Below are positions 3,682-8,044 of a DNA stretch of 64,000 nucleotides, in pieces. Below the pieces are notes generated by a model. That model was not told where the DNA came from. It saw nothing but the letters and a program-made list of their open reading frames with translations, and made no database searches. The stretch is from contig JAKARS010000005.1 of assembly GCA_021828375.1 (NCBI GenBank), forward strand, positions 1 through 64,000, given 5' to 3'. The translations under genes were made by a program, and so were the position numbers. This DNA is from Nitrospirota bacterium. GTDB taxonomy: Bacteria > Nitrospirota > Leptospirillia > Leptospirillales > Leptospirillaceae. Every line of letters starts with the position of its first letter. The stretch's first letter is position 1.

Positions 3682-3894
3682 TCAGTGGCACATGACAAAG
3701 CTGAATGCATGGCGAACGGGATGAACCATGTCGTGGACCATGGGAAGTGGGGCAAAAAGAAGCAAGTAAAGGGTCACAGGAATCCACACAAAGGCTCCCA
3801 CGACCATTGCCAGTTCTTTCCACTTTGTGCCCTTGGCCAGAACATCCGTTCCGGTGGCAGCCTCTTCTAGTTCCATCAGATCCACTCGATGCAT
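3682..3894 (-). CDS. Small membrane protein with C-terminal His/Cys motif, resembling CbtB (putative cobalt transporter subunit)
   Basis: One predicted TM segment followed by VHDMVHPVRHAFSFVMCH. Confidence 0.45.
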   Translation of the reverse strand: MHRVDLMELEEAATGTDVLAKGTKWKELAMVVGAFVWIPVTLYLLLFAPLPMVHDMVHPVRHAFSFVMCH

Positions 3895-3958: not shown

Positions 3959-4315
3959 TCAGGAGCTCTTGTTCATTCCCCACGATCCCATCTCGACCGG
4001 TTCGCCGTCTTGGCAGCCTCTGTCAAGAGGCGTTGCATCCTTTGACTCAATCGGGACGACATGACCCCTCGAGATCAAGTAGTTTTCCACTTCTTCCCCG
4101 CTCACATCCGCAAGCATCACTCCATCGATTTCGACGCAGGGAGACAGACGTTGGCCCGACTTCCTCACCATTTCACTGTAGGCTTCGGGATCACCGATGA
4201 TGTTGATGTCATTGTAGGGAAGGGAGTACTTGGTGAAGACTGCACGAACTCCTCGGCTCCATCCACAGCTTGGCTTAAGATAGGCCTTGATCGTGATATT
4301 TTTACTGTTTTCCAT
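3959..4315 (-). CDS. Glutaredoxin-family protein (PSCGWS active site)
   Basis: LKPSCGWSRGVRAVFTKYSLPYNDINI ... LSPCVEIDGVMLADVSGEEVENYL; start chosen at internal ATG 4315. Confidence 0.8.
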   Translation of the reverse strand: MENSKNITIKAYLKPSCGWSRGVRAVFTKYSLPYNDINIIGDPEAYSEMVRKSGQRLSPCVEIDGVMLADVSGEEVENYLISRGHVVPIESKDATPLDRGCQDGEPVEMGSWGMNKSS

Positions 4316-4407: not shown

Positions 4408-5199
4408 TCAGCGAGACAGTGGGTGGGGCGGATTCCAAAAGGCCACTGAGCGAAGGGACAAGGAGCCGTATCGGAAGATATCCACGGGAAAGGTCACATG
4501 AAATCCCTCTCCGGCCGCTCCCATTGCCACGAATAGAGGGGCAAAGTGCTCGATGGTCGGATGGGAGAGTGAGGCATTTGGAGCTTCCTTCCTGAAGTCG
4601 AGAAGGGAGGTTGTGTCGGAAGACTCAAGCTTTCGGACGACCCACTGGTCAAACTCCTGCGCCCAGGGGGCTATCGCGTGATTCTCACCGGCGATAAGGG
4701 CTCCCAGGTTGTGGGTAAGGCCACCGCTACCGATAACAAGAATCCCCTCGTCTCTCAGGGGAGCCAGGGCTTGGCCGAGGGAATAAAGACGACCTGGATC
4801 CGTACCTGGAAGAGAGAGCCCAAGAACAGGAATGTCAGCCTTTGGACGAAGTCCGATCAGCGGTACCCACATTCCATGATCGAGGCCGCGTGATGGTGCG
4901 GGAGTAACCGGCCCGATCTCTGGGAGCTTTTGTAGAATCGGGAGGAGATCCGCTCCGGATGGGGCAGGATAACGAACGCGATAGAGTCTTTCAGGGAAGC
5001 CCCAAAAATCATAAATCAGGGAGGAGGGGAGAAGGGGGCCTGCAAAAAGCCCCCTCTCGACCCAATGGGCAGAGAGGATGATGATGCCTCGGATATCTCC
5101 AAGTTCCTCCCCCAAATTTCGAAGGGACTTCATCCACTCTTCGTCTTCAAGTGAGCTGGGTGCTCCGTGGGAGATGAAAAGCGATGGCAGCCTGTTCAT
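4408..5199 (-). CDS. 4,5-DOPA dioxygenase extradiol / LigB-family dioxygenase (YgiD-like)
   Basis: LFISHGAPSS, SAHW, YDFWGFP, SGGLTHNLGAL motifs. Confidence 0.88.
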   Translation of the reverse strand: MNRLPSLFISHGAPSSLEDEEWMKSLRNLGEELGDIRGIIILSAHWVERGLFAGPLLPSSLIYDFWGFPERLYRVRYPAPSGADLLPILQKLPEIGPVTPAPSRGLDHGMWVPLIGLRPKADIPVLGLSLPGTDPGRLYSLGQALAPLRDEGILVIGSGGLTHNLGALIAGENHAIAPWAQEFDQWVVRKLESSDTTSLLDFRKEAPNASLSHPTIEHFAPLFVAMGAAGEGFHVTFPVDIFRYGSLSLRSVAFWNPPHPLSR

Positions 5200-6098
5200 A
5201 GGCTGGGACTCCCTTCAAGCCAGGCCTCAAGGGCAAGCAGCGTCATTCCAAAATCGGCAACGCATGCATTTTTTTCGGGAACATTGTCGGAGAGGGCCAT
5301 TCTGAGAACGTCCGGCGTCAGGAATGGGCGGGGGAGAAGAAGCTTCTGCAGCACGGCCGATGCCATCATGATGCCGACAGGTGCTCCGAGAATGGGGATT
5401 TTGAGATGGCAAGAGGTTTTTATGGTTTCCATCATCTGTCGGTAGGTGTAGATACGGGGGCCTCCGGCTTCATAAATCTTGCCCAAGGTCTCCGTTCGCG
5501 ATGAAACCATCACGCACAGCCTTGCCAGATCTCCGGCAAAAATTGGCTGGACTCGGGCCGTCCCTGGTCCGATCATGGGGAGAACGTGGACGAGTCGGGC
5601 AATGTCCAGAAATTGATTGATTGAGCGATCTCCTTTTCCAAAGACCAAAGAGGGACGCACGATGGTATAGGGAAGGAGGCTCTTGCGGAGGGCTTCCTCT
5701 CCGCGGGCCTTTGTTCGATGATAGGCACTGGGCGCGTTGGGAGAGGTTCCCACAGCACTTATGTGCACGATTCTCCTCAGAGACCGCTGATCCACCGCGG
5801 ACAATGCATTGACGACACCCTGATGATGAACCATCTCGTAAGATTGTTCCCGGGTTTCGGCAAGAATTCCTGGGAGGTACCAGACGACATTGGCTTGAGA
5901 CAGTCCTTCTTTCATCCCCATTCCTGAGACTGCGTCTGCCGGGTAGAATTCCGTTTCCGGAGGAAGAGAGTCGGGATGCTTTCTTGCAAGGAGTCGGACG
6001 CGAGCTTTCCCCGCAGTTTTGAGGGCATCGGCCAGATAGCGTCCAACAAACCCTGTGCCCCCGATAATTGCATGCACTTCCTGAGTGGCGTCACTCAT
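5196..6098 (-). CDS. NAD(P)-binding epimerase/complex I NDUFA9-like protein
   Basis: IIGGTGFVGRYLADAL Rossmann motif, YHRTKARGE. Confidence 0.82.
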   Translation of the reverse strand: MSDATQEVHAIIGGTGFVGRYLADALKTAGKARVRLLARKHPDSLPPETEFYPADAVSGMGMKEGLSQANVVWYLPGILAETREQSYEMVHHQGVVNALSAVDQRSLRRIVHISAVGTSPNAPSAYHRTKARGEEALRKSLLPYTIVRPSLVFGKGDRSINQFLDIARLVHVLPMIGPGTARVQPIFAGDLARLCVMVSSRTETLGKIYEAGGPRIYTYRQMMETIKTSCHLKIPILGAPVGIMMASAVLQKLLLPRPFLTPDVLRMALSDNVPEKNACVADFGMTLLALEAWLEGSPSL

Positions 6099-6179: not shown

Positions 6180-7376
6180 CTAGGCTGTGGCTCCGGTGAC
6201 ATTGATCCGAGAGAGGATTCGGCGGGATTTATTCAATGCTGACTGAAAAAGGGCGAGATCTGGCTCCCGGTTCCACCACCCGAGAGAGAGCACGATGGAC
6301 CCTTGTGCCTGACGTGCTGGGTAGCCAAGAGCGGTCAAAACATGGGAAACAGTCAGGGATTGGGCCGAGCAGCTGGCGCCGGTTCCAACTTCCACTCCTT
6401 CACGGTCGAGCAATGATAGGAGCGCCTGTCCGTCAACTTCAGGGACGAGGATGTTCAGAATCCCTGGGCGTCTTGGGGCATGAAGGGCCGCAATCTTCGC
6501 ATCCGGATGCTCCTTTTGGATGGCTGAAAGAAAGAGGTGGTCCAAGTGTTCAAGTCGCTGGCGATCTGTCGAGAGGGATTCTTTTTCCTGTCGAAGAGCG
6601 TGGGCAAATCCTGCGGCAAGGAAGACCGGTTGGCTCCCTGCCCGACGTCCGTCTTCCTGGGCCCCTCCCAGAAGCCAGGGATTGATCCGGATCCCCCGGC
6701 GAAGAAGAAGCGCCGCGATTCCTGCCGGACCCCCAGCAACGGAAGAAGATAGGGACATCAGGTCGGGTCCATCACTCTGCAAGGAGAGAGGCTCCCATCC
6801 TTGGGCCGCCGAGGAGTCACTGTGGAGAATCCCGCCTCTTTCCCTTACGATTCCGGCGACCTCCGCTAGGGGCTGGAGGAGACCGGTCTCAGGACTCACT
6901 CGTTGCAGGGAGACCAGTGTTCTCGCTCCCGGCCAATTTCTTTTGAGGGCATCGGTGTCGACCGTCCCTTGGGGAGTCAGCGTGAGAAGCTCCATTTTTG
7001 CGCCCGTCTCACGGGAAAGGGCTTCTGCGCTTCGGAGGACCGAGCTGTGTTCGAGAGGAGAGACCAAAATATGATCCGGTGCAGTGTTTCCGGGAAAACG
7101 GACTCCTCGTATGGCCCACACATTGGCTTCCGTTACGGAGGAGACAAAGATCACTTCTTCCGGCCGGCTATGGGCATACCGTGCGACGTCGTCCCGATAT
7201 CGCTCGAGGCGTTCAGCTTTGTCGAGTCCCCTTCGGGTCCGGGCGGTGGGAACAACGGTATCTTCGAGCTCTTTATCTATCGCTTCCCGGACCCCCGGTC
7301 GAAAATACGGCATTGTGTCGACATGAAGATGGATCATCCTACGTCCCTTAATGTTGTTAAGTTTTTGGGTCCTCAT
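6180..7376 (-). CDS. Cysteine desulfurase (NifS/IscS, class V aminotransferase fold) homologue lacking the PLP lysine motif
   Basis: Family-like LLGGAQEDGRRAGSQPV, GASCSAQSLTVSHVLTALG; canonical S-x-S-x-H-K region reads SLSSSVAGGPAG. Alternative start at 7337 (MIHLHVD). Confidence 0.8.
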   Translation of the reverse strand: MRTQKLNNIKGRRMIHLHVDTMPYFRPGVREAIDKELEDTVVPTARTRRGLDKAERLERYRDDVARYAHSRPEEVIFVSSVTEANVWAIRGVRFPGNTAPDHILVSPLEHSSVLRSAEALSRETGAKMELLTLTPQGTVDTDALKRNWPGARTLVSLQRVSPETGLLQPLAEVAGIVRERGGILHSDSSAAQGWEPLSLQSDGPDLMSLSSSVAGGPAGIAALLLRRGIRINPWLLGGAQEDGRRAGSQPVFLAAGFAHALRQEKESLSTDRQRLEHLDHLFLSAIQKEHPDAKIAALHAPRRPGILNILVPEVDGQALLSLLDREGVEVGTGASCSAQSLTVSHVLTALGYPARQAQGSIVLSLGWWNREPDLALFQSALNKSRRILSRINVTGATA

Positions 7377-7576: not shown

Positions 7577-8044
7577 ATGTCCAAGACGAATCACACGGGG
7601 GAACCCCTTCCGATGGCACATGATGATCTTATCAAATCCATTTTGACCGACTCCAAAACCGTGGCGGTTGTCGGAATTTCCGACAAGCTCGGACGTCCAA
7701 GCCTCACCGTCGCCAGCTACCTTCAGGACCATGGCTTCGATGTTCTTCCTGTCAATCCCAACCTGAGCTCCGTGGCGCATGTTCCCTGTTATCCCGATCT
7801 GAAAAGCCTTCCTGTGACACCTGACCTTGTGGTGATCTTTCGAAAGGCTTCGGATATTCCGGATGTTGTCCGGGAAGCGGTGGCGACGGCGGTTCCCCGC
7901 GTCTGGATTCAGGAAGGGATCGTGAGTGAGGAAGGATATCGTATGGCTGAGATTGCCGGAATGGCGGTCATTATGGACAAGTGCATCATGAAAGAACATG
8001 CCCGCCTGACCCGGGAAGGCCACTTGGGGAAGGAACATCACTAA
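7577..8044 (+). CDS. CoA-binding protein (YccU-like); start probably ATG 7613
   Basis: KTVAVVGISDKLGRPSLTVASYLQDHGFDVLPVNPN, VWIQEGI. Confidence 0.88.
   Translation: MSKTNHTGEPLPMAHDDLIKSILTDSKTVAVVGISDKLGRPSLTVASYLQDHGFDVLPVNPNLSSVAHVPCYPDLKSLPVTPDLVVIFRKASDIPDVVREAVATAVPRVWIQEGIVSEEGYRMAEIAGMAVIMDKCIMKEHARLTREGHLGKEHH

Follow-up and report, generated by a model that had tools for sequence, protein, structure and literature searches.

The window, that is, the whole 64,000-nucleotide stretch of DNA analysed here, comes from an iron-oxidising bacterium and carries on its minus strand a gene for a NifS/IscS-type protein of aminotransferase class V (F0, the product of the open reading frame at 6180-7376; residue numbers follow E. 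coli IscS throughout). The genes and codons considered below are the following.

3682..3894, minus strand: F5, small CbtB-like membrane protein (PF09489, E=1.1e-7)
3959..4315, minus strand: F3, CGWS glutaredoxin-like protein (PF00462, E=7.8e-10), syntenic, likely start at 4315
4408..5199, minus strand: F4, LigB-type dioxygenase family protein (PF02900, E=2.1e-26), here only in the window's genus
5196..6098, minus strand: F2, NAD(P)-binding epimerase/NmrA-like protein (PF01370, E=1.9e-14), directly 3' of F0 in nearly all loci
6180..7376, minus strand: F0, predicted Lys-less NifS/IscS-like pseudo-desulfurase (PF00266, E=2e-40; 17 orthologue sequences, five genera)
6291..6293, minus strand: GTG, encoding Val where IscS has Arg354, which binds the substrate carboxylate (V in 17/17)
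6369..6371, minus strand: TGC, encoding the mobile-loop Cys (equivalent to Cys328), kept (invariant, 17/17)
6738..6740, minus strand: GTT, encoding Val where IscS has Lys206, the Schiff-base Lys for PLP (ungapped alignment; V, A, S or R in 17 orthologues)
6741..6743, minus strand: Ser codon at the His205 position (alignment)
6816..6818, minus strand: GAC, Asp180-equivalent codon, kept (invariant, 17/17)
7047..7049, minus strand: CAC, His104-equivalent codon, kept (invariant, 17/17)
7577..8044, plus strand: F1, CoA-binding domain protein (PF13380, E=3.9e-36), divergent neighbour in most loci

The open reading frame of F0 spans 398 aa without interruption and matches PF00266 (Aminotran_5) with E=2e-40 and 139 bits (Pfam cutoff, 21.5). 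The best NCBIfam model is NifS, at 217.8 bits, far below its cutoff of 530.75 bits, and the IscS model scores 164.6 bits, also below its cutoff (643.2). The initial annotation had described an intact frame with family landmarks and a degraded N-terminal motif. The frame is indeed intact, the landmarks LEH, ILHSDSS, LLGGAQEDGRR and GASCSAQSL were all recovered, and HVDTMP replaces DNAATTP at the N-terminus. The start at 7376, however, is probably not the one used: the extension upstream of the ATG at 7337 is absent from all orthologues except the nearest, and this internal ATG (MIHLHVDTMP...) is probably the true, conserved start. An AlphaFold model built from F0 of the window and four orthologues was of low confidence (mean pLDDT 50, pTM 0.42) and speaks neither for nor against any reading of F0.

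In NifS, IscS and SufS, the motif Lys forms the Schiff base with PLP. We aligned F0 to E. coli IscS (K-12 MG1655, L089, 404 aa) with MAFFT and to desulfurases from the PDB with HMMER. As had been proposed from the sequence, the F0 motif DLMSFSGHKIYGPKG aligns without gaps to DLMSLSSSVAGGPAG, with Ser at His205 and Val at Lys206, and the Val codon GTT lies at 6738-6740 on the minus strand, where it had been placed. Two more catalytic residues that had not been noticed before are lost as well, namely Arg354, replaced by Val, and Asn155, replaced by Pro, and the Gln183 equivalent is lost too. Arg354 is R in 28/28 sequences of our reference set, which was chosen by having both K206 and R354. In a solved cysteine desulfurase, the carboxylate of the substrate is bound by the residues equivalent to this Arg and Asn (PMC5426080). 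Thus, with the equivalents of Lys206, Arg354 and Asn155 gone, both cofactor anchoring and substrate binding appear to be lost in F0. In IscS, His205 and Thr243 contact the PLP phosphate, and His104 and Asp180 contact the PLP ring. Among the F0 orthologues, the position of Thr243 is variable and so, across all 17, is that of His205, whereas the Ser203 equivalent is invariant; His104 and Asp180 are kept in 17/17, so that F0 might still accommodate a ring-like ligand. The mobile loop is of the group I type, with its Cys retained. In sum, F0 has the fold, mobile Cys loop, His104 and Asp180 in common with group I NifS/IscS enzymes, such as E. coli IscS and human NFS1, but lacks the catalytic Lys and the carboxylate Arg and Asn of these enzymes.

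Orthologues were collected by a scan of contigs and a search, covering 21 genomes of the window's family, and the resulting alignment (A1) consists of 17 orthologue sequences from five genera of this one family, the window included. The search for an intact His-Lys among the orthologues, which the initial annotation had called for, showed Lys to be missing in 17/17 (V, A, S or R in its place). The 17 sequences come from separate assemblies, which rules out a sequencing error or unique mutation. The invariant columns of A1 include the loop Cys, His104, Asp180, Ser203 and GGP, as well as a Trp that replaces the downstream GR Arg, and across the columns of these 17 sequences we found no invariant or nearly invariant Lys that might be a substitute. 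The ratio dN/dS, estimated by the NG86 method, is 0.09-0.18 over nine pairs of F0 orthologues, which indicates a maintained protein; among five control pairs of paralogues, four gave 0.05-0.08 and one 0.26, the latter from a frame taken from stop to stop that carries a non-genic extension. In two F0 loci a single stop was reported, and it precedes the conserved start.

Searched against 296 Nitrospirota genomes, the A1 profile scores the copies in the window's family at 573-648 bits and all others at 324 bits or less. The Lys is absent from all 13 of the next-best loci retrieved with this profile, where the motif reads AHQFYGPKG, AHLFYGPKG, AHEFYGPKG and others. Thus, the uniqueness that the initial annotation implied has to be abandoned, given that Lys-less homologues are already known (A. 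fulgidus IscS and M. acetivorans IscS1; PMC7585200) and are common across Nitrospirota. Arg354 is lost in every sampled sequence outside the canonical K206/R354 group and the set of isc-operon IscS proteins described below. Two families (f3 and f35) keep Lys206 and have lost Arg354, the state that an intermediate would be expected to show. In an IQ-TREE tree of 102 sequences, which was midpoint-rooted and includes A. fulgidus and 9wfy sequences copied from printed alignments, the 17 F0 proteins form one clade with support 100, joined at support 100 by Lys-less proteins of two other families (L154 and L153); deeper nodes are weaker. Given the midpoint root and the copied sequences, the order in which Arg and Lys were lost is a matter of interpretation and not proven. 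The placement of the F0 clade as nested within a wide Nitrospirota lineage, in which Arg354 was apparently lost throughout and Lys206 almost throughout, is supported by these comparisons. The same loss in relatives from many Nitrospirota families points to a long-maintained non-catalytic protein and not to a sequencing error.

The Lys-less relatives at 18 Nitrospirota loci (L090-L107) belong to the same broad lineage as F0, resemble it in the absence of Lys206 and Arg354 and the retention of the loop Cys, and share with it the SLK/ALK and QGS-V motifs. Unlike F0, in which these features are absent or degraded, they have TusA and IscU genes beside them and carry an LRE-SP tail. A TusA-family gene is found at 17 of the 18 loci, and IscU/NifU_N and Rrf2 at 16 each (Pfam assignments made on one representative per cluster). 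The recurrent arrangement is an Rrf2 - TusA - Lys-less NifS - IscU cluster, with TusA present even in the absence of IscU (L094, L102).

Some side observations were made in other genomes. One that is 98% complete (G113) contains, at a PF00266 threshold of 1e-15, only one Lys-less NifS-like protein and one protein without IscS-like similarity (L228, L237), and no canonical desulfurase was seen in it at this threshold. In two others (G273, L223; G151, L232), we noted by eye open frames of ~1130 aa that are apparent fusions of a molybdopterin-oxidoreductase-like part with a canonical, Lys-containing desulfurase.

Within the window's family, F0 is followed by F2 in 13 of 14 loci, the window counted; no F2 was called in L053 (G001), and L045, which ends near F0, was left out of this count. 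F3 was called in 12 family copies besides that of the window (not in L045 or L051), and the CbtB-like F5 in 8 loci. In F3 and its orthologues, a C-terminal Gly-Cys is conserved in complete copies; Leptospirillum is said to lack glutaredoxins (PMC7084401). Directly upstream of F0, four of the five genera carry DUF3501, which is preceded in three of the genera (g2, g3, g5) by an Fe-S CCG-domain protein; no DUF3501 was found in the six genomes searched of the window's own genus. Neither an IscU nor a TusA gene lies beside F0 in the operon of the window. In E. coli IscS, deletion of residues 376-404 abolishes IscU binding (PMC2854127), and the corresponding IscU-docking C-terminus of F0 has, in the window's genus, become shorter and dissimilar to that of IscS, and is partly IscS-like in the other genera. 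A DndA/SspA role in phosphorothioation was considered and rejected: the PADLOC profiles match F0 by homology only, the scanned neighbours are not dnd/ssp genes, and the Lys is missing.

The best PDB match of the F0 family profile is A. fulgidus IscS (4r5f/4eb5), which lacks the Lys and is reported to be without desulfurase activity and to provide one Cys ligand for the cluster on IscU (PMC7585200). Like F0, A. fulgidus IscS (PDB 4eb5, 4hvk, 4r5f) combines a NifS/IscS fold and a retained loop Cys with the loss of Lys206 (Asp there), Arg354 (Leu) and Gln183 (Ala). However, it works with IscU and keeps Asn155, whereas F0 has no adjacent IscU, a degraded docking tail and no Asn155. M. acetivorans IscS1, which also lacks the catalytic Lys (PMC7585200), is similar to F0 in this respect, going by its published description, but is archaeal and has an IscU1 partner. 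A 406-aa 'cysteine desulfurase' in the PDB, 9wfy, carries Leu at Lys206, Val at Arg354 and Arg at Asn155. Four sibling entries each carry some canonical residues, with all of them in 9wep, so that the series, of which five of seven sequences were seen, looks like a stepwise restoration of canonical residues. With about 455 bits to L090 and 160 bits to F0, this protein is nearer to the TusA/IscU-associated group. In the open-licence literature, we found nothing specific on a Lys-less desulfurase with TusA, or on a pseudo-desulfurase, beyond the archaeal precedents. We class F0 as a new and diverged subfamily within the Lys-less IscS/NifS type already known, found in a new genetic setting.

The window's family also encodes a second Lys-less protein. 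In its isc-operon IscS, Lys206 is replaced by Leu, Asp180 by Asn, Gln183 by Tyr and His104 by Gly or Ile; the protein is Lys-less and retains Cys328 and Arg354 in each of the ten genomes examined (the window's own, G000, and G001, G003, G004, G007, G009, G011, G012, G013 and G018; loci G000:C16 [L006, L057], G004 L058 and L191-L199). Its C-terminal tail was seen in L006, L033, L041 and L042, and in the operons that were read (L057, L058), the IscU gene, one of which is found in nearly all genomes, adjoins this tail-bearing Lys-less IscS. In the IQ-TREE tree, a node with support 100 unites the isc-operon IscS with E. coli IscS and human NFS1, which indicates that its loss of Lys was separate from that in F0.

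The separate canonical desulfurase that the initial annotation had suggested looking for exists only in part: the window's own genome has two Lys-containing paralogues (G000:C33 and C11), but the isc-operon IscS itself is Lys-less. Lys-containing paralogues were also found in G003, G004, G009, G012 and G013 (by alignment) and in G011 (L165). In G001 (99% complete), G018 (95%) and G007 (89%), PF00266 matches both Lys-less proteins, an AGXT-like protein, for which the open reading frame was read in each genome (L215, L216, L217), and weaker hits; among the matches read in these three genomes, no Lys-containing IscS, NifS or SufS was detected with PF00266. The open reading frames of the window's own genome that match those weaker hits are GcvPB-like and decarboxylase-like (L011, L012). 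Whole-cell extracts of Leptospirillum CF-1, a strain outside the genomes examined, show desulfurase activity that has been attributed to IscS (PMC9628965). Where a desulfurase is missing, sulfide can be the sulfur source (PMC13015791, PMC12192291). It is conceivable, if still doubtful, that members of the family build their Fe-S clusters without a PLP-dependent cysteine desulfurase, with both IscS proteins being Cys-loop carriers fed by sulfide or by TusA/DsrE-type persulfide.

By eye, we also noted that in the window's own genome a TusA open reading frame adjoins a DsrE-like one (L190 7646-8340; G000:C26), a possible sulfane-sulfur route, and that a Lys-containing paralogue with the motif GHKFYAPKG (L188; G000:C33) lies near ArsD/ArsA-like and OsmC-like open reading frames.

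The view of F0 as a non-PLP pseudoenzyme, now with evidence of purifying selection, is supported by the loss of Lys in 17/17 orthologues and in sister lineages, the loss of Arg and Asn, the lack of any other invariant Lys and the dN/dS of 0.09-0.18. That F0 is a pseudo-desulfurase is strongly supported at the level of sequence and evolution, and the putative role offered in the initial annotation, a scaffold, regulator or sulfur acceptor acting via the retained Cys, fits these data. We favor, with a probability of roughly 0.55, the reading that F0 is a PLP-free pseudo-desulfurase working via its loop Cys, probably as a sulfur (persulfide) carrier with an operon partner. With the Lys, the carboxylate Arg and Asn and part of the phosphate contacts gone, F0 would be unable to run PLP-dependent cysteine desulfuration. 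Instead, its loop Cys would take up sulfur (sulfide or persulfide) supplied by another source and then present the sulfur, or a thiolate, to a partner. Given the degraded docking C-terminus and the absence of an IscU or TusA gene next to F0, this partner would more likely be the glutaredoxin-like F3, the epimerase-like F2 or DUF3501 than IscU. From the retained Cys and by analogy with the distant relatives, we infer this sulfur-relay step, and carriage of sulfur through the loop Cys would be the most likely role of F0.

Less probably, F0 could be a Cys-ligand scaffold that docks IscU and gives its loop Cys to a nascent [2Fe-2S] cluster, as has been reported for its best PDB match, A. fulgidus IscS, which has Asp for Lys (PMC7585200). 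The invariance of the loop Cys among the F0 orthologues is consistent with such a function; however, the IscU-binding C-terminal region has degenerated, most strongly in the window's genus, and the IscU gene, in the operons read, adjoins the different, tail-bearing Lys-less IscS. Enzymes of class V form dimers whose active sites lie at the interface, and an improbable reading is that F0 serves as a regulatory or structural pseudo-subunit, pairing with another desulfurase homolog in a heterodimer and tuning or localizing it. The fold-defining motifs of F0 are conserved while the active site decays, and IscS paralogues occur in 10/10 genomes examined, but the only other NifS/IscS-type protein found in G001 and G018 is itself Lys-less, and F0 is only about 30% identical to the paralogues. 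Certain sugar dehydratases employ PMP together with a His, and the invariant His104, Asp180 and Ser203 equivalents would suit a protein in which PLP or PMP is still at work, in a new chemistry that needs no Schiff-base Lys. We consider this quite unlikely, given the variation at His205 and Thr243, the loss of Asn155 and Gln183, the Val found at Arg354 in 17/17 and the lack of an alternative invariant Lys. Finally, a sequencing error, a unique mutation or a decaying pseudogene can be dismissed, with Lys missing in 17/17, frames open and dN/dS at 0.09-0.18.

Cysteine desulfuration is the usual presumed first step of ISC-type sulfur trafficking. If our reading of F0 and of the isc-operon IscS is correct, at least two losses of this step have occurred within a single bacterial phylum, with the fold and the Cys loop kept. 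The role of the desulfurase fold as a scaffold or carrier, apart from its chemistry, would then be directly testable. Furthermore, such a loss would cast doubt on the isc-operon IscS as the cysteine desulfurase of Leptospirillum, as assumed previously (PMC9628965).
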